Shown: positions 19,695 through 62,845 of the stretch, one piece after another
How the letters are laid out: every line of letters starts with the position of its first letter
Position numbering within the stretch: the first letter of the stretch is position 1
Source: Faunimonas pinastri
Lineage (GTDB): Bacteria; Pseudomonadota; Alphaproteobacteria; Rhizobiales; Afifellaceae
Direction: 5' to 3'
Length of the DNA: 64,000 nt
Assembly (NCBI RefSeq): GCF_900110915.1
Contig: NZ_FOFG01000005.1
Span: 124,001-188,000 of the forward strand
Program-made: the position numbers and the translations under genes
Notes under the pieces: model-generated
What the model saw: the letters and a program-made list of their open reading frames with translations, nothing else
Told to the model about the DNA's origin: nothing
Database searches by the model: none

Positions 19695-19748
19695 GCCCGC
19701 TCCGGCGGAAACGGAAGCGGCGGCAGACGCCGCTTCCCGGACTAAGTT

Positions 19749-20515
19749 CTAGGCCACCGACTCATTATGTCGCAGCCAGATGCGGATGCTGGCGAGTTGG
19801 ACTGAGGCGAGGAAGTTGTCATCGCGCTTGTCGTATCGGGTGGCGACGGCACGGAACTGCTTGAGTTTGTTGAAGAAGCGCTCGACGAGGTTGCGGTAGC
19901 GATAGAGGAAGGTGCTGAAGAGCGGTCGACGCTTGCGGTTCGGCATGGGCTTGATGTTGGCCCAAGCGCCGCGTGCCGCCATCTCGATCCTGAGCGCGTC
20001 GCTGTCGTAGGCGCGGTCGGCGAGGAGCACGTCGCCATCGCCGAGAGTGGTGAGCATGTCGGCGGCACTGCGGCCATCGTGTGCCTGACCCGCGGTGAGC
20101 TTGAGCGCGATCGGCAATCCGTTGGCATCCACCAGAGCGTGGATCTTGGTGGTCAGGCCGCCGCGCGAGCGACCCATGCAACCGGGTCCCCCTTTTTACT
20201 GCCGTTGGCGGCGTGCTGGTGAACCCGGATCGATGAGGAGTCGATCATCTGGACATCGCCCTCGTAAGCTGCTGACACCGCTTCCAATATTCTTTGCCAG
20301 TGCCCCGCCCGCCGCCAGCGGTTGAAGCGGTTCACGCACGTCGTATGCGGACCATAGCGCGCCGGGATGTCCGCCCAGGGAGCGCCCGTCCGCAGCCGCC
20401 AGAAGATGCCGTTCAGCACCCGCCGGTCATCCACCCGTTTCACCCCACGTACCTTCGTCGGCAGCAGCGGCTCGATCACCGACCACTCGAAATCCGTGAG
20501 ATCAAACCGCGCCAT
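19749..20515 (-). CDS. IS5-family transposase, probable -1 programmed frameshift
   Basis: Two overlapping frames encode one DDE transposase. The first (from ATG 20515) has MARFDLTDFEWSVIEPLLP, VDDRRVLNGIFWRLRTGAPW and MIDSSSIRVHQHAANGSKKG. The second, in the -1 frame, continues with GRSRGGLTTKIHALVDANGLP and ends RNLVERFFNKLKQFRAVATRYDK...HNESVA. The switch site is AAAAAGGGGG near 20190, a run typical of -1 slippage in IS5-family elements. The stop codon TAG belongs to the CTAG at the element boundary. Catalytic residues (D in MIDSSS, D in LADRAYD, E in VERFF) are present, so it looks functional. Confidence 0.85.
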
Positions 20516-20589
20516 GCTCGTCTCCTTGCAGGAGAACTGATTCACGCATCAGCGGGTTTGGAAACCCTGTTTATGGGTCTGCGGCCTAG
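19749..20589 (-). mobile_element. IS5-family insertion sequence (IS427-like), complete
   Basis: CTAG occurs at both outer ends (19749-19752 and 20586-20589). Just inside are imperfect inverted repeats: left GCCACCGACTCAT, right (reverse complement) GCCGCAGACCCAT. The element proper is about 833 bp. It holds one transposase split over two frames. Outside it lie near-identical flanks, ACTAAGTT on the left and ACTAACTT on the right. It sits just after the ubiH-like stop codon and damages no gene. Confidence 0.88.
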
Positions 20590-28918: not shown

Positions 28919-29716
28919 ATGCCTCTGACCATCGCCACCTGGAACATCAATTCCGTTCGCCTCCGCATCGACCTCGTCGCCCGGCTTCTCGCCGAGCATG
29001 CGCCGGACGTCATCTGCCTGCAGGAAACGAAGTGCCCCGACGCGAACTTTCCGTCGGGCGCCTTCCGCGATGCCGGCTACACCCACATCGCCATGCACGG
29101 GCAGAAGGGCTATCACGGCGTCGCCATCGCCTCGCGCCTGCCCCTGAGCGACACGGACAAGCGCCTGTTCTGCGGCCGCGAAGACGCCCGGCACATCTCG
29201 GTGAAGGTGGATTACGAGGATCGCCCGGTGACGATCCACAACGTCTACATTCCCGCCGGTGGCGACGAGCCGGACCCGGAAGCGAACTGGAAATTCGCCC
29301 ACAAGCTGTCCTTCCTGGAAGAGATGGAGGCTTGCGCGGCGGGACTCGCCGGCCCGCGTTCCGTGCTGGTGGGCGACCTCAACGTCGCGCCGCTGGAAAC
29401 CGACGTCTGGTCGCACAAGCAGCTTCTGAAGGTCGTCAGCCACACCCCGCCGGAAACGGAGCGCTTCGAGCGGATGCGCGTCGCCGGTCCCTGGGTGGAC
29501 GTGATGCGCAACTTCGTGCCGCCGGAGGAAAAGCTCTTCACCTGGTGGAGCTATCGTTCGCCGAACTGGGAAACCAACGATCGCGGTCGCCGGCTGGACC
29601 ATGTCTGGGCGACGCCGGATCTGGCGGCGGAGGCTCAGGAGATGACAGTGCTGCGGGAAGCCCGGAACTGGCCGCGCCCGTCGGACCATGTGCCTGTGCT
29701 CGTCAGGTTCGCCTGA
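28919..29716 (+). CDS. xthA: Exodeoxyribonuclease III
   Basis: A 265-residue AP endonuclease / 3'-exonuclease of the EEP superfamily acting in base excision repair. Motifs in order: TWNINSVRLRIDLV, CLQETKCPD (metal-binding Glu), YHGVAIASR, LVGDLNVAPLETDVW, YRSPNWETNDRGRRLDHVWAT and SDHVPVLV (catalytic His). Length and motifs are complete. It is convergent with the cyclic-nucleotide-binding gene. Confidence 0.93.
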   Translation: MPLTIATWNINSVRLRIDLVARLLAEHAPDVICLQETKCPDANFPSGAFRDAGYTHIAMHGQKGYHGVAIASRLPLSDTDKRLFCGREDARHISVKVDYEDRPVTIHNVYIPAGGDEPDPEANWKFAHKLSFLEEMEACAAGLAGPRSVLVGDLNVAPLETDVWSHKQLLKVVSHTPPETERFERMRVAGPWVDVMRNFVPPEEKLFTWWSYRSPNWETNDRGRRLDHVWATPDLAAEAQEMTVLREARNWPRPSDHVPVLVRFA

Positions 29717-36553: not shown

Positions 36554-37289
36554 GGGTTGAGTGCTGATTCACAGGGTTCCTGTGCGGGAGCGCGGAGCGG
36601 ATTATGACGAGCAAGCGGTGGGGCAGATCACAGGAAGTGGGCACGGATCGCACCGTTGCCGCCGGGGAAGGCTGGGATCCGGGTCGGACTACCTTGTTCG
36701 TGAGTGGATGTTTGTGGGTGCTGCGCTCAGGCACGCATTGATGTGACGCCGGAACATCTACGGCAAGCGGAAGATGGCGCATCGCCGCCTCGGGCCGTTG
36801 TGGCCATGCCGGGTGTGGGAGCCGGTCTTCGAGGCACTGACGGCCGATCGCGACAACCAATACCTCAGGATCGACAGCACCATCCTTCGCCCGCTCCAGC
36901 AGGCAGCGAGTACAAAAGGGGGCTGGGGCGTTCCCGAGTCGGACTGACCACCAAGATCCACATGCTGACCGACACGATAAGTCGGCCACTGCGGTTCATC
37001 ATCACCGCAAGCCAGACCGACGACATCACCAAGCCTATGACAGCAATGCCTTACGCGCCAGCATCGTCAGCATGAACGCCCAAGCGGTGGTCCCCTCCAA
37101 TTGCTGCCGCAAGACTTCCAACCCCGCGATGCCATCGCCTACAAGCACCGGGATCTCATCGAGGGGTTCTTCCGCAAACTCAAGCACTTCGCGGCTTTGC
37201 CGCCCCTACGATCACCGCACTATCCACTTTACCGGCTTCGTCTATCTCGCCGCCATCATGATCTGGCTACGCTGAATGCCGATCTGCCC
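36554..37289 (+). mobile_element. Decayed IS5-family element (remnant A)
   Basis: A degraded element bounded by an imperfect inverted repeat: left GGGTTGAGTGCTGATTCA (36554-36571), right as reverse complement GGGCAGATCGGCATTCA (37273-37289). It contains recognisable but broken transposase segments on the plus strand. Its right end abuts the CTAG of remnant B. Confidence 0.7.
36604..37275 (+). pseudogene. IS5-family transposase pseudogene (remnant A)
   Basis: Fragments of a DDE transposase appear in several frames: RNIYGKRKMAHRRLGPLW and VWEPVFEALTADRDNQYLRIDSTI (catalytic Asp), then LTTKIHMLTDTISRPLRFIIT, then YKHRDLIEGFFRKLKHF (catalytic Glu) and finally YDHRTIHFTGFVYLAAIMIWLR. Stop codons and frameshifts separate them, and a piece is missing after the second Asp region. 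Not functional. Confidence 0.8.
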
Positions 37290-38052
37290 CTAGGGCGTGG
37301 ACTCAAGAGGGCGCAGCCAGATGCGCGCTGAGGCGAGGGCGACGGCCGGGAGGGAGTTCCGGGCGAGCTTCTCGAAGCGGGTGGCGACTCGGCGAAACTG
37401 TTGAGGTTGCAGAACTAGCGCTCGACGAGGTTGCGCCGTCGATAGAGGCGGGGCTCGACTGGAGCGCCGAACTTGACTTCACGTCGGGTCGAGGTTTGCG
37501 CCGTTCCGCCTCGCGCGGCGACCAGTTCGATCAGGGCGCGGCTGTCGTAGCCCGATCGGCGACGTCGACCGTGGCTTGCGGCAGTCCGGCGAGCAGTTCC
37601 GGGAACGCCGCCTTGTCCGAGGCTTGGCCCGGCGTGATCAGCAGCCGAACCGGCAAGCCGTCCTGGTCCACGACAGCGTGGATCTTGGTGCGCAGTCCGC
37701 CACGAGAACGGCCAATTGCGCGATCAGGAGCCCTTTTTACCGCCCGTGGCGCGCTGGTGCGCTCGGACGATCGAGCTGTCGACCAACTGCAGGCTCTGCG
37801 GCGAACGCTCCCTCAAGACCTTGAACACGGCCAGCCACACGCCCTTTTTCGTCCACCCGTTCGAACCGGTTATAACCAATCGTGTACGGGCCGTAGCGCT
37901 CCGGCAGGTCCCGCAGGGCTAACCGGTCCGTAGAACGTAGAAGATGCCATTCACGACATGTCGGTCGTTTCCCGGAGCTTACCTTTGCCAACTGGCGAAA
38001 GCAGCAGCTCAGCAATCCGCCACTCCGCTTCGCTCAGATCGTAGCGCGCCAT
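37290..38052 (-). pseudogene. IS5-family transposase pseudogene (remnant B)
   Basis: From ATG 38052 the frame reads MARYDLSEAEWRIAELLL and then stops early. Further segments in other frames include RDLPERYGPYTIGYNRFERV, a DDE region resembling RSRGGLRTKIHAVVDQDGLP, and a C-terminus ending LESTP. An in-frame TAG interrupts RNLVER near 37410. As in the other copies, the last sense codon is followed by the TAG of the boundary CTAG. Not functional. Confidence 0.75.
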
Positions 38053-38125
38053 GCTCAAGCTTCTTTCGGAAGTCTGAAATCAGCCTTCGCTCACCTCCTC
38101 AAGTGTTAGCAAGTACGCACCCTAG
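37290..38125 (-). mobile_element. Decayed IS5-family element (remnant B, IS1031/IS427-like)
   Basis: CTAG words at 37290-37293 and 38122-38125 bound an 828-bp element. Just inside, the left end reads GGCGTGGACTC and the right end (reverse complement) GGTGCGTACTT. The right-hand CTAG is also the parB stop codon context. It inserted next to remnant A in the holA-parB convergent gap. Confidence 0.75.
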
Positions 38126-39000
38126 GCGCGAAGCTTGCGGCAGAGCGCCTCGAGTTGCTCCAGGTTGCTGTAGCTGATCCGAATCTCGCCCTTGCCGGCC
38201 GCCCTGTGGCGGAGATCGACGCTTAGTCCGAGATGCTCCGACAGCTCCTGCTCGACGGCGCGAGTATCGGCGTCCTTCTCCGCTGGGGCGCGGGACCTGA
38301 CGGCCGGCAGGGTTTCGGGCGCGGTCTGCGCCAGCTTCTCCGTCTCACGCACGGAAAGTCCCTTGTCGACGACCACGCGGGCGAGCTTTTCCGGGTCCGG
38401 CGCCGTGATCAGCGCGCGACCATGGCCGGCGGACAGTTCGCCCGATTCCAGCCGCGAGAGCACGGCGCGGGGCAGCTTCAGGAGCCGCAGCGTATTCGTG
38501 ACGTGGACGCGGCTCTTGCCGATCGTCGCGCCCAGATCGGCCTGCGTATAGCCGAACTCGCTCATCAGCGCCTGGTAACCCATCGCCTCTTCGACCGGGT
38601 TGAGGTCGCTGCGCTGGACGTTTTCGACGATCGCAAGTTCGAGCGCTTCGCGGTCCGACACTTCGATGATGTGGACCGGCACTTCGTGCAGGCTTGCCAG
38701 CTGCGAGGCGCGCCAGCGCCGTTCGCCGGCGATAATCTCGTAACCTTCGCGCGGACCGGCCATCGGGCGCACGACGATCGGCTGCACGATGCCGTGGGCG
38801 CGAATGGAGGCTGCCAGATCCTCCAGATCCCGCTCCAGAAACTCGCGGCGAGGATTACGCGGATTGGGATGAATGGACCCGACCGGCACGGTTCGCCGGC
38901 TGGCGTCCGGCAGCGGCGCCGCTTCGACGGCAGCGATGGGATAGTCACCGAGGAGAGCGTCGAGGCCGCGTCCGAGGCGTTTGCGGGTTTCCAGTGCCAT
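38122..39000 (-). CDS. parB: Chromosome-partitioning protein ParB
   Basis: A 292-residue CTP-dependent DNA clamp that loads at parS. The N-terminus has RKRLGRGLDALLG, the ParA-stimulating tail. The CTPase domain (about residues 35-125) includes NPRNPRR and GERRWRAS. The helix-turn-helix (about 150-190) has QADLGATIGKSRVHVTNTLRLLKLP, and the C-terminal dimerisation domain ends EQLEALCRKLRA. The stop codon coincides with the CTAG at the end of an insertion-sequence remnant. It lies 25 bases after parA. Confidence 0.96.
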   Translation of the reverse strand: MALETRKRLGRGLDALLGDYPIAAVEAAPLPDASRRTVPVGSIHPNPRNPRREFLERDLEDLAASIRAHGIVQPIVVRPMAGPREGYEIIAGERRWRASQLASLHEVPVHIIEVSDREALELAIVENVQRSDLNPVEEAMGYQALMSEFGYTQADLGATIGKSRVHVTNTLRLLKLPRAVLSRLESGELSAGHGRALITAPDPEKLARVVVDKGLSVRETEKLAQTAPETLPAVRSRAPAEKDADTRAVEQELSEHLGLSVDLRHRAAGKGEIRISYSNLEQLEALCRKLRA

Positions 39001-39025: not shown

Positions 39026-39850
39026 TCAGGCGGCGCGCAGCGCGCGCTCGCGCTGGATCACTTCGCTGGCGAGCTTCAGGTAGGCTTGGCTTCCAGCGCA
39101 TTTCAGATCGTACAGAAGCGCCGGCTTGCCGTGCGACGGCGCCTCGGAAATGCGGACGTTGCGGGGGATGATGGTCTTGTAGACCTTGTCGCCCAGATGC
39201 GCTCGGACATCGTCGACGACCTGCCCCGCCAGCTTGTTGCGCCCGTCGAACATGGTGAGCACAATGCCGTGGATGGAAAGCTGCGGGTTCAGCCCCGTGC
39301 GGACACGCTCCACGGTGCTCAGAAGCTGGCTCAAGCCCTCCAGGGCGAAGAACTCGCACTGCAAAGGCACCAGTACGGCGTGGCTCGCGCTCATCGCGTT
39401 CACCGTGAGTAGGTTCAGCGAAGGCGGGCAATCCACCAGAACGTAGGTGAAGGCCGGAGCCTCGGCATCGTCGGCGAGTTCGGAGAGAGCCGAACGGAGC
39501 CGGTAAGTCCGGTCCTTCATCGCGGCGATCTCAAGCTCTACGCCGAGCAGGTCCAGCGTCGATGGCGCGACGAAAAGGCGTGGCACAGCAGTGGGTTGCG
39601 TGACGCCGGCGAGCGTCTCGTCGCCGACCAGCACGTCGTAAGTCGACGTGCTGCGGCTGTGGCGGTCGATGCCGAGGCCGGTCGAGGCGTTGCCCTGCGG
39701 GTCCAGGTCTATGATGAGGACGGTTTCCCCGATGGCCGCCAGCGCAGTGCCGAGGTTGATTGCAGTTGTCGTCTTCCCCACCCCGCCTTTCTGGTTAGCG
39801 ACGGCAAGAACTCGAGGACGGATGGGCAGGCCGGGCACGGGAATGGTCAT
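39026..39850 (-). CDS. parA: Chromosome-partitioning ATPase ParA
   Basis: A 274-residue MinD/ParA-family ATPase that drives origin segregation with ParB-parS. The deviant Walker A motif KGGVGKTT is at residues 21-28, and LIIDLDPQGNASTGLGI and VLVDCPPSLNLLTVNAM are the A' and B motifs. ATG 39850 overlaps the rsmG stop codon (ATGA), so parA is coupled to the mnmE-mnmG-rsmG transcript. Confidence 0.96.
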   Translation of the reverse strand: MTIPVPGLPIRPRVLAVANQKGGVGKTTTAINLGTALAAIGETVLIIDLDPQGNASTGLGIDRHSRSTSTYDVLVGDETLAGVTQPTAVPRLFVAPSTLDLLGVELEIAAMKDRTYRLRSALSELADDAEAPAFTYVLVDCPPSLNLLTVNAMSASHAVLVPLQCEFFALEGLSQLLSTVERVRTGLNPQLSIHGIVLTMFDGRNKLAGQVVDDVRAHLGDKVYKTIIPRNVRISEAPSHGKPALLYDLKCAGSQAYLKLASEVIQRERALRAA

Positions 39851-40503
39851 GACGGTGATGTCCTGGCTTGCAGATGACGGAGGGTGGCGACGCAGCCGGC
39901 GGGATCGATGAGGCTTGGCCGGGTGGCCAGATCGTAAGTCCAATTCCTGGCCGCCTCCGCCTCCTCGGCCGCGAAGTCCTGCCCCTTCATCGCCAGTAGC
40001 GCGCCTTTCGGTGTCAGCAACGGTTTGGTGAGACGGCAGAGATCGTCGAGCGGCGCCAGAGCGCGAGCGGAAACCACGTCGGCGCGGCCTCCGAACCGCT
40101 CGGCCTGATCCTCGATCCGGCCGAGCACGATCTCGGCCCGTGCACCGGTTTCTCGTGCGACCGTGCGGAGAAAGGCGCACTTCTTGCCGTTGGATTCCAC
40201 CAGCACGAACCGGAGATCCGGCTTATCGGCAGCGACTACCGCAAGGACCAGCCCCGGAAAACCGCCGCCGCTGCCGACATCCATCCACAGGCCCCGCTCC
40301 GGAAGGTCGGAGACAAGTTGCAGGCTGTCGGCGACATGCCGGGTCCAGACTTCCGGAAGCGTCGAGTGCGAAACCAGATTATGCGTCGCCTGCCACTTCC
40401 GTAGCAGCTCCACATAGACGCTCAGGCGCTCTCCGGCGGCCGGTTCGATTTCGAATCGGGAGAGAACGTTGCGTGCATCGCCGGGCAAGATGTCAACCGG
40501 CAT
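39847..40503 (-). CDS. rsmG: 16S rRNA (guanine-N7) methyltransferase RsmG
   Basis: A 218-residue GidB-family methyltransferase that modifies G527 of 16S rRNA. Motifs are [42 protein letters not shown] (SAM binding) and [21 protein letters not shown]. It overlaps mnmG by 11 bases at its start and parA by 4 at its end. Confidence 0.95.
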
Positions 40504-42382: not shown

Positions 42383-42398
42383 TGTTTCACGTGAAACA
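42383..42398. promoter_or_regulatory. Perfect parS centromere site
   Basis: TGTTTCACGTGAAACA is an exact match to the consensus 16-bp ParB-binding palindrome. It lies in the mnmE-mnmG gap, ending 9 bases before the mnmG ATG, about 3.4 kb from parB and 6.3 kb from the candidate origin. Confidence 0.95.
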
Positions 42399-47237: not shown

Positions 47238-47657
47238 TCAGAACGGCTTCAGGACGACCAGGAACACGATGATCACCAGAAGCAGCGTCGGGATCTCGTT
47301 GACGATCCGGTAGAACCGCGCCGAATGCGGGTTCCGGTCCGCCCCGAAGAGCCGCACCCAGCGGGCCAGGCCCATGTGGACGGCGGAGAGGATGACGACG
47401 CAGAGAAGCTTGGCGTGCAGCCAGTGCTCCGGCCAGGCATGCTCCATCGTGGCGAGCGTGATGCCGAAGATCCAGGTGGCGATCATCGCGGGATTGGCGA
47501 TCGCCTTGAGGAGCCGGCGCTCCATCACCTTGAAGGTCTCCGATTGCGGCGAACCCGGGGGCACGTCGGCGTGGTAGACCATCAGGCGGGGCAGATAGAA
47601 CAGGGCCGCCATCCAGGCGACCAGCGAGATGATGTGAAGGGCCTTGACGGTCAGCAT
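47238..47657 (-). CDS. hemJ: Protoporphyrinogen IX oxidase HemJ
   Basis: A 139-residue membrane protein with four predicted helices. The conserved histidine near the start (KALHIISLVAWMAALFYLPRLMVYH) and the pattern MERRLLKAIANPAMIATWIFG...HWLHAKLL match HemJ (UPF0093). It oxidises protoporphyrinogen IX to protoporphyrin IX in heme synthesis. Its ATG shares one base with the hemE stop codon (TGATG), so the two heme genes are coupled. Confidence 0.92.
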   Translation of the reverse strand: MLTVKALHIISLVAWMAALFYLPRLMVYHADVPPGSPQSETFKVMERRLLKAIANPAMIATWIFGITLATMEHAWPEHWLHAKLLCVVILSAVHMGLARWVRLFGADRNPHSARFYRIVNEIPTLLLVIIVFLVVLKPF

Positions 47658-48688
47658 CAGGTTTTCCGGATCCGGCGGATCAGTTGTTCGACGTGGGAAA
47701 TCGGCGTGTCCGGCGTGATGCCATGGCCGAGGTTGAAGATGTGTGGACGGCCGCGCATGGCGAGGAGGACGTCGTCGACGCCCCTATCGAGTGCCGTGCC
47801 GCCCGCGATCAGCCGGAGCGGATCGAGGTTTCCCTGCACCGCCTGCTTCGGCCCGACCACGGAAGCCGCGATCTGCGGCGGCACGGTCCAGTCGACGCCT
47901 ATGCCTTCCGCCCCGGTTTCGCGTGCATAATCGCCAAGACGCGCGCCGGCCCCACGGGCGAAGGCGATCACCGGCGCACCGGGCACGGCCTCGCGAACCC
48001 GGGCGATGATCCGCCTTGCCGGCTCCACCGACCACTTCCGGAACTGGTCGTCGTCGAGAACGCCCGCCCAGCTGTCGAAGATCTGCACGCAATCGGCGCC
48101 GGCGCGAAGCTGCGCGATCAGGTAAGCGGCGGAAGCGTCGACCAGAATGTCGATCAGGCGGGAGAAGCCTGCCTCGTCGCGATAGGCGGCCAGTCGCGCC
48201 GGAGCCTGGTCCGGCGTGCCATGACCGGCGATCATATAGGTCGCCACCGTCCAGGGAGCCCCGCAGAAGCCGATCAGCGGCTTCTCGTCGGGAAGCACCC
48301 CACGGATACGGTCGACCGCCTCCAGCACCCGCTCCAGCTTCGCCACGGTCCGATCGGCGTCTTCGAAGCGGATCTTCGCGAGATCCACGGTTTCGACCTG
48401 CGGTCCCTTGCCCTCGATGAACTCGACCGAATAGCCAAGCGCCTGGGGAATGACGAGGATGTCGGAGAACAGGATGGCCGCATCCAGATCGAACCGGCTG
48501 ATCGGCTGCAGGGTCACTTCCGTGGCAAGCTTCGGGGAGTAGCAAAGATCCAGGAACGAACCGGCTCGCTTGCGCGTTTCACGGTACTCGGGGAGATACC
48601 GGCCCGCCTGTCGCATGATCCAGATCGGCGGCACCTCGAAGGCTTCGCCCTTCAGGGCTCTGAGGAGTTTCGCGTCGGCTCTCGGCAA
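47657..48688 (-). CDS. hemE: Uroporphyrinogen decarboxylase
   Basis: A 343-residue enzyme that decarboxylates uroporphyrinogen III to coproporphyrinogen III. Signature features are [67 protein letters not shown] and [12 protein letters not shown]. The start is TTG 48688, with AGGAGA 9 bases upstream; the nearest ATG is out of frame. It is divergent from ppsR across the candidate origin. Confidence 0.95.
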
Positions 48689-48709
48689 TCCCCATATCTC
48701 CTAAAAGAG

Positions 48710-48728
48710 AGACTCTTAGAGAGAGTCT
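48710..48728. terminator. Bidirectional terminator-like hairpin between hemE and the origin
   Basis: A 7-bp stem AGACTCT / AGAGTCT with a 5-base loop. On the plus strand it is followed by GTTTCTTTTGTTTG. On the minus strand it is followed by CTCTTTTAGGAG, which contains the hemE ribosome-binding site. It could insulate the origin or attenuate hemE. Confidence 0.5.
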
Positions 48729-48819
48729 GTTTCTTTTGTTTGGGGGTGAATTGCTGGAATTAGCCGTCGTCCCCAATTAGCCCACACCCTTATCCTGTGA
48801 TCCCGGGCCGCGCCAGCGT

Positions 48820-48828
48820 TGTGGATAT
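48820..48828 (-). promoter_or_regulatory. DnaA-box-like site
   Basis: TGTGGATAT, reverse complement ATATCCACA, matches the DnaA box TTATCCACA at 8 of 9 positions and lies in the candidate origin. Confidence 0.55.
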
Positions 48829-48911
48829 GTCGGCGGCCTGTCGGGAAGAAAGCCTGGAAACGCGAACCGGAATCGGCGGACCAAGCGGGCAAGCTCCGAT
48901 TTGGCGAACTG

Positions 48912-48926
48912 TTAACAGAGTATTAA
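48912..48926. promoter_or_regulatory. CtrA-type binding site in the candidate origin
   Basis: TTAACAGAGTATTAA is a perfect TTAA-N7-TTAA, the known CtrA recognition pattern, placed in the AT-rich core of the hemE-ppsR interval. In Caulobacter, CtrA binds such sites to repress origin firing. Confidence 0.7.
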
Positions 48927-49130
48927 TAGCTTCCGGGTTATTCGACCGTCGCGAGAGACGCCGGAAAGTTGTCCCGGGGCAGCGAGGCTGTTGATCGTTT
49001 TGGACGGAAGCGGGACGGGCAATGGGCAGAGCGGCCGACAACTCCGATCCGGGGCGTTTTATCCCCGCAGATCCCGGACTTTCCCCAGGCTGCCTTCAGG
49101 CGCGTTCCAGCCCGCGAACGCCCTGATCCG

Positions 49131-49973
49131 ATGCCCCAGTCGAACGCCAGTCCGCGCTACTTCCATCTGCACCTGATCTCCGATTCCACCGGCGAGACGC
49201 TGATCAATGTCGGCCGGGCAGCCGCGGTCCAGTACAAGCAGACCCACGCGATCGAGCACATCCATTCCCTGCTCCGCACGCCGGCGCAGGTGGATCGCTG
49301 CCTGCGCGATGTCGAGCAGGCGCCGGGCATCGTGCTTTATACGATCGTGGACGCGGAACTCGCCCGTAAGCTCCAGGCCGGCTGCGAGGAACTGGGCATT
49401 CCCTGCGTGTCCGTTCTGGACCCCGTGCTGAACGCCTTCCAGTCCTACCTCGGAACGCGCTCCTCGGGCCGCGTCGGCGCGCAGCACGTGCTGGACGCCG
49501 ATTATTTCCGCCGCATCGACGCCTTGAATTTCACGCTCGCCCATGATGACGGGCAGCTGCCGGACGACGTGGAGGACGCGGAGGTCATCCTCGTCGGCGT
49601 CAGCCGCACCTCCAAGACGCCGACCTCGATCTATCTCGCCAATCGGGGCGTGCGGACCGCAAACGTGCCGCTGATCCCCGCGACCCCCCTTTCCGAAGCG
49701 CTCCTGAAGGCGAAGAAGCCGCTGGTCGTCGGTCTGATCGCCAGCCCGGACCGCATCGTGCAGATCCGGCAGCACCGGCTGATGATGCTGAGCACGGACG
49801 AAACCATGGAATCCTATGTCGACCGGGCGACGGTCACCGAGGAAATCGCCTGGAGCCGCAAGCTCTGTGCCCGGCAGGGCTGGCCGCTGATCGACGTCAG
49901 CCGCCGCTCCATCGAGGAAACGGCAGCGGCCGTCGTGGCGCTTCTGAGCGCACATCGCGAGCGCCTGACGTGA
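49131..49973 (+). CDS. ppsR: Pyruvate, phosphate dikinase regulatory protein (kinase/pyrophosphorylase)
   Basis: A 280-residue DUF299 protein that phosphorylates and dephosphorylates pyruvate phosphate dikinase or PEP synthetase. It starts [14 protein letters not shown] and has the P-loop-like [18 protein letters not shown]. Known as RP001 in origin studies. ATG 49131 opens the conserved domain. The stop overlaps the maf start (GTGA), and the gene heads a compact operon ppsR-maf-aroE-coaE-dnaQ. Confidence 0.93.
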
Positions 49974-61624: not shown

Positions 61625-62845
61625 TTGAGCATCAGGGCAGTCCAGCAGGCCGGACGCAAGCGAGGCGGCGCATTCTTGACGCTGGCGGCTGCCTTGCTGC
61701 TTGCCGCCTGCACGCAGAGCCGGCCGACGCCTCCGCCCGTGGCGGCGTTGCCGACAACCGTGGCACCCACGGCTTCCGCAGGGGCGGATGTTGCACGTGA
61801 AACACTGGGCTCCGGCGATGTGCACGTCGCCATGCTCCTGCCGAAGAGGGGCAGCGGCAATGCGGCCGCAACCGGCACGGCATTCCGCAACGCCGCCGAT
61901 CTCGCGATGCGGGATTTCCCGAACAGCGGCATCCAGCTCACCATCTACGACGATGGCGGAACGGCGCTGGGCGCCTCCGCCGCCATGGATGCGGCGCTGG
62001 CGGATCACTCCGGCATCGTGCTGGGACCGGTCTTCGGGGCGTCCGTGCCGACGGTGGCGGCCAAGGCGCGCACGGCCGGAGTGCCGGTCGTTGCCTTTTC
62101 TTCCGACGCCAGCGTGGCGGGGCAGGGCGTTTATCTGCTGAGCTTCCTGCCGTCGGAGGACATCCGCCGAATCGTCACCTACGCCGCCAGCCAGGGAAAG
62201 AAATCCTTCGCCGCGCTGCTGCCGAGCTCCGCCTATGGTTCGGTCGTGGAAGCGGCGCTGCGGCAGACGGCCGGCAATGTCGGCGCCCGCGTGATCGCCA
62301 TCGACCATTACAGCCCCGATGGGTCCGACCTGCAGGCCAAGGCGCAGGCGATGGCCGCCCAGGCCTCGCAATACGACGCGCTGCTGATCCCGGACAGCGG
62401 CGACTTCGCCCCCCGGATCGCGAGCGTGCTGGCAAATGCGGGCGTGCGGCCGGGGCAGGTTCAGCTTCTCGGCAGCGGCCAGTGGGACGATCCGCGCGTC
62501 CTCAGCAACGCGGCGCTCGCGGGTGCGTGGTATCCCGCGCCCACCAAGCAGGGCTTCGAGACCTTCGCCTCGAAATACCAGGCCGCCTTCGGCTCCCAGC
62601 CGCCGCGTAACGCGACGCTCGCTTATGACGGGACGGTGCTTGCCGCCGGTCTCGTCCGCCGCTTCGGCCCGGATCATTTCGACAGCACGACGCTCACCAA
62701 TCCCAACGGCTTCGTCGGAGTGGATGGCGTGTTCCGCTTCGTGAACGGTGGCACGACGGAGCGGGCGCTGGCGATCTATCAGGTGACGGGCACGGGATCG
62801 CAGGTGGTCTCGCCCGCGGCACGAGGCTTCGGCGGCAATAGCTGA
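61625..62845 (+). CDS. Penicillin-binding protein activator, LpoA-like lipoprotein
   Basis: A 406-residue lipoprotein starting at TTG 61625 with GGGAGAG upstream. The signal sequence GAFLTLAAALLLAAC has its lipobox Cys near residue 29, followed by a Pro/Ala linker and a periplasmic-binding-protein type I fold (VHVAMLLPKRGSGNAAATGTAFRNAADLAM, ALADHSGIVLGPVFGASV, YDALLIPDSGDF). Comparable to LpoA C-terminal domains that stimulate PBP1; the E. coli TPR domain is absent. A near-consensus parS lies within it at 61789-61804. Confidence 0.85.
   Translation: MSIRAVQQAGRKRGGAFLTLAAALLLAACTQSRPTPPPVAALPTTVAPTASAGADVARETLGSGDVHVAMLLPKRGSGNAAATGTAFRNAADLAMRDFPNSGIQLTIYDDGGTALGASAAMDAALADHSGIVLGPVFGASVPTVAAKARTAGVPVVAFSSDASVAGQGVYLLSFLPSEDIRRIVTYAASQGKKSFAALLPSSAYGSVVEAALRQTAGNVGARVIAIDHYSPDGSDLQAKAQAMAAQASQYDALLIPDSGDFAPRIASVLANAGVRPGQVQLLGSGQWDDPRVLSNAALAGAWYPAPTKQGFETFASKYQAAFGSQPPRNATLAYDGTVLAAGLVRRFGPDHFDSTTLTNPNGFVGVDGVFRFVNGGTTERALAIYQVTGTGSQVVSPAARGFGGNS
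61789..61804. promoter_or_regulatory. parS-like site, one mismatch, inside the lpoA-like gene
   Basis: TGTTGCACGTGAAACA differs from the parS consensus TGTTTCACGTGAAACA at one position. It lies about 12.7 kb from the candidate origin on the side opposite the perfect parS. Confidence 0.7.

Follow-up and report, generated by a model that had tools for sequence, protein, structure and literature searches.

The DNA analyzed here (the window) is a 64-kb stretch of the genome of Faunimonas pinastri, whose nearest named relatives are uncultured Afifella; it corresponds to positions 124001 to 188000 of the 237-kb contig C29 in an assembly of 4.2 Mb in 43 contigs. The same genome encodes a RepC-type replication initiator (G000:C37:84792-85295) and probably has a repABC replicon besides the chromosome. 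Within the window, hemE (47657-48688, minus strand; Pfam URO-D, PF01208) and ppsR (also RP001, COG1806, or DUF299; 49131-49973, plus strand; Pfam Kinase-PPPase, PF03618) are divergently oriented and enclose a gene-free gap of 442 nt (48689-49130). A preliminary description had proposed this gap as the chromosomal origin, citing its flanking genes, an AT-rich core, DnaA-box-like words, and nearby partitioning elements. The Pfam domains bear out the identity of both divergent flanks. The AT-rich core is likewise upheld: the G+C content of the interval is 59% (A+T 41%) against about 66% (A+T about 34%) in the window, and the 40 nt of lowest stability in the entire 64 kb, by nearest-neighbour energy, lie within it at 48701-48740 and constitute a probable DNA-unwinding element. 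As for the claim that this is the longest gene-free stretch without insertion sequences, a spot check of the other long gaps (approximately 19.7-20.6 kb and 36.7-38.0 kb) found that they carry transposase-like fragments. At 19742-20545, two overlapping minus-strand frames resemble a frameshifted IS5-type transposase, and the stretch from a holA-like gene to parB (36704-38015) contains several transposase-like fragments that are apparent insertion-sequence remnants. The partitioning elements are also present as described, namely parB (38122-39000) and parA (39026-40180), both on the minus strand, an exact parS site at 42383-42398, 6.3 kb from the interval, and a second parS with one mismatch (15/16) at 61789-61804, with 0 expected by chance for either site.

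The arrangement of hemE and ppsR as adjacent, divergent genes is retained in nearly all relatives in which both are readable, with gaps mostly of 350-510 nt. One such region, in a record titled Bacillus subtilis SK6B4 (L078, JAHREI010000001.1), is close to that of Pseudochrobactrum and probably derives from a mislabelled or mixed assembly. Alignments place the most conserved part of the interval on its hemE side, at 48720-48783 (plus strand), where a T-rich tract is followed by GGTGGATTA, GGGATT and, in relatives, TCCACAA. The attention of the preliminary description had rested on other parts of the interval, and this block went unseen there, as did the stability minimum and the W-boxes, CtrA site, and GANTC pair considered below. 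A profile of 20 relatives, built with the F. pinastri genome excluded, recovers the block as its best nhmmer match on the 237-kb contig (E 8.8e-10); a 67-position model of 18 relatives, again excluding this genome, finds a single match in 4.2 Mb, at precisely 48720-48783 (E 2.4e-9). The second-best profile match, at 29203-29246 (E 0.0088), falls within a coding Exo_endo_phos gene, is absent from the whole-genome matches, and was rejected. Thus, the interval holds a conserved sequence that is unique in its genome, as is characteristic of origins of the hemE/COG1806 kind. In an order-wide scan, 31 of 101 genomes have a match, one each, and five held-out genomes (G034, G035, G040, G045, and G058) have theirs some 300-400 nt upstream of ppsR. 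The 70 genomes with no match to the profile include lineages with a diverged block, such as the Rhizobiaceae and Hyphomicrobium types.

Evidence that this position is where replication diverges comes from the GC skew of related genomes. In two members of the same family, the skew changes sign close to the interval. The change point of G008 is at 1390 kb and its interval at 1391 kb, an agreement within about 2 kb; for G002, the positions are 84 kb and 83.3 kb, respectively, an agreement within about 1 kb. Neither result was matched in any of 1000 permutations, which for G008 were block permutations. In G053, a member of the same order available as one closed contig, the skew is -0.072 in one 20-kb sample and +0.050 in the next, with the change at 1492 kb, which is the position of the interval. 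Of the remaining genomes, G049 agrees only to within one 240-kb sampling step, the sampled skew of G029 is noisy and uninformative, and that of G005 is uninformative as well, with a break at 44 kb for an interval at 81.6 kb (p 0.05). The contig of F. pinastri itself has a weak signal, with a skew of -0.021 over the left 80 kb and +0.009 over the right 63 kb, and its best single breakpoint is at 217 kb as against about 173 kb for the interval; this is indecisive and only compatible with an origin at the interval.

The DnaA-box-like words fare less well as evidence. The best of them, ATATCCACA (48820-48828, minus strand), is a real 8/9 match to the DnaA box, but the window has two words of this grade against 2.5 expected by chance, so that they carry no weight by themselves; two weaker words exist, at 48790-48798 (TTATCCTGT, 6/9) and 49059-49067 (TTATCCCCG, 7/9). 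Hence, of the earlier proposal, the place stands and this part of its justification does not. The chance-level frequency of such words, like the indecisive skew of the contig, would suit an interval that is plain spacer, AT-rich and supplied with box-like words by accident, with the origin elsewhere, for example near dnaA, which is on contig C19. Such an explanation would leave unaccounted for the genome-unique conserved block, and the skew of relatives points to the interval and not to dnaA (in G008, dnaA is at 1838 kb, far from the break); we accordingly assign it a negligible probability. Strict DnaA boxes (TTATNCACA), a cluster of which is indicative of an origin and not required, are absent from the interval. 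The origin interval of G002 (L006) has no box with one or fewer mismatches and yet the skew breaks there, indicating that origins of this clade can do without strict boxes. What the interval does have in excess is the hexamer TCCCCA, a weak DnaA site of Caulobacter termed the W-box (PMC4285127). It occurs three times against 0.10 expected (48689-48694, 48770-48775, and 49082-49087, all on the plus strand), with the second copy inside the conserved block, where relatives have TCCACA. The broader TCC[AC]CA class is found four times against 0.26 expected and is in 12-fold excess across such intervals. Alignments reveal one further conserved word, CTGTTGATCG (48988-48997, plus strand), as a possible weak DnaA site. 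No IHF consensus was found in the interval.

The T-rich tract of the conserved block displays a striking periodicity. Thymine occupies alignment columns 170, 173, 176, and 179 in 99, 96, 85, and 95% of sequences, with mixed bases between them, and the same phase is recovered separately in three genome groups. The recurrence of thymine at every third base was seen across 100 origins. The in-phase thymines are the middle adenines of minus-strand NAN triplets, which is the pattern of the DnaA-trios (PMC8287927). In F. pinastri, the tract reads AAA CAA AAG AAA CAG on the minus strand of 48727-48741, that is, five in-phase trios where the rule for the basal unwinding system (BUS) asks for at least three (PMC8287927). 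Within the window alone such a run is not significant (p 0.24), and its support comes from the alignment. In most Afifellaceae, the trios are adjoined by TAATCCACC, a word two mismatches from the DnaA box, and the BUS rule, which further specifies a box that has at most two mismatches and lies no more than 16 nt from the trios, holds in relatives. In F. pinastri, the equivalent position (48745-48753, minus strand) is occupied by the degenerate CAATTCACC, with four mismatches, and the best 9-mer has three mismatches and overlaps the spacer. With its trio-adjacent box degenerate, the element departs from the published rule, and we class it as one that would work like a BUS and not as a formal BUS. 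Two other genomes, G002 and G006 (L006 and L007), are also degenerate at this position despite a conserved DnaA domain IV. An altered DnaA specificity, considered as a reason for the degeneracy, is unsupported, as domain IV of the F. pinastri DnaA is near-identical to that of relatives.

A different kind of regulatory signal is provided by the CtrA consensus TTAA-N7-TTAA at 48912-48926, which is unique within the window (0.02 expected). This motif occurs 18 times in 102 origins against 0.3 expected, a 56-fold excess, with none in the Rhizobiaceae or Hyphomicrobium types. A ctrA homologue is encoded on contig C28, with 84% identity to a Caulobacter-type query. The site and the gene together are those of a Caulobacter-type gated origin, with binding and repression by CtrA as the prediction from sequence.

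GANTC, the target of the CcrM methylase, is strongly avoided across the window, where dinucleotide shuffles predict 346 sites and 79 are present. Such avoidance is reported for CcrM-bearing alphaproteobacteria. Against this background, the interval has one site at 48711-48715 and another at 48723-48727, on the edge of the trio tract, and the genome encodes a methylase with a RAMA domain, as in CcrM. The association extends over the order: 88 of 100 origins have at least one GANTC no more than 20 nt from the trio anchor, with 180 sites against 9 expected from the flanks, counts that come from related genomes and are not independent events. The excess persists on column shuffling (63 rows against 25, maximum 35, again among related genomes), and the remainder of the intervals shows no excess (144 against 139). 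Most origins in the order have predicted CcrM sites inside or beside their DNA-opening element, an unusual detail; a literature search of incomplete coverage returned no paper placing GANTC in DnaA-trios. It is conceivable, if rather unlikely, that the opening tract of the main origin in Hyphomicrobiales is itself a methylation target, with hemimethylation after firing altering DnaA capture or strand opening and so delaying re-initiation. If true, this would be a separately evolved counterpart of the Dam sites in the unwinding repeats of E. coli.

Alternatively, the conserved block could act chiefly as the promoter or leader of hemE, in which the GANTC sites would support transcription that depends on methylation; the true origin would then lie elsewhere in the vicinity. 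This block is situated upstream of hemE, at a distance of about 30-95 nt, and, in Caulobacter, CcrM acts through promoters and its loss from C. crescentus left a wild-type-like DNA content (PMC3973325), all of which would sit well with a promoter. A promoter accounts poorly for the excess of TCC[AC]CA and CtrA sites in the intervals, for skew that flips there in relatives, or for thymine at every third base in three clades, and we regard it as very improbable.

We conclude with high confidence that the hemE-ppsR interval is the DnaA-dependent chromosomal origin of Faunimonas pinastri, on the grounds of synteny, a genome-unique noncoding signature, the skew of relatives, the stability minimum, the CtrA site, and the nearby parS sites. 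It is an origin of the ordinary alphaproteobacterial type, with weak boxes. DnaA would collect on weak sites, comprising the 8/9 box at 48820, the TCCCCA W-boxes, and the TGTTGATC element, and from there would extend over the T-rich tract in the direction of hemE, following the trio-like triplets of the minus strand and opening the DNA where the region is least stable. Phosphorylated CtrA at its consensus site would probably block initiation, as in Caulobacter, and ParB bound to parS would segregate the new origins. In this manner, the origin of a little-studied lineage has been placed without reliance on DnaA boxes, and a short profile is now available for finding origins in the draft genomes of relatives. 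More generally, a three-base periodicity that runs through the order speaks for a DnaA-trio opening element in the origins of alphaproteobacteria, and the enrichment of GANTC within it makes a role for methylation at the main origin testable.

Among known systems, the closest parallel is Cori of Caulobacter crescentus, which shares the flanking hemE and COG1806/RP001 genes, a length of about 400 nt, weak sites of the W-box type, CtrA consensus and GANTC sites, and a composition AT-richer than the genome (PMC1914354, PMC4285127, PMC3973325). The two differ in that F. pinastri has one CtrA consensus site as opposed to five in Cori, lacks the G-box TGATCCACA and the IHF consensus, and has a CtrA site that overlaps no recognisable DnaA box. 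The origins predicted beside hemE in Rickettsia and Wolbachia follow the same rule of position and likewise have few recognisable boxes (PMC1914354); they belong to very AT-rich genomes and, in several strains, have more CtrA sites. With the BUS of Bacillus subtilis, in which a DnaA-box and a spacer precede the DnaA-trios, the likeness lies in the five in-phase NAN triplets that come after a spacer and in the strict three-base periodicity across relatives (PMC8287927); the difference lies in the conserved box position, whose 9-mer has four mismatches where the rule allows two. Finally, the chromosomal origin of Sinorhizobium meliloti, a member of the same order, is reported to have neither CtrA motifs nor CtrA binding (PMC4433202), whereas that of F. 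pinastri retains a consensus CtrA site.
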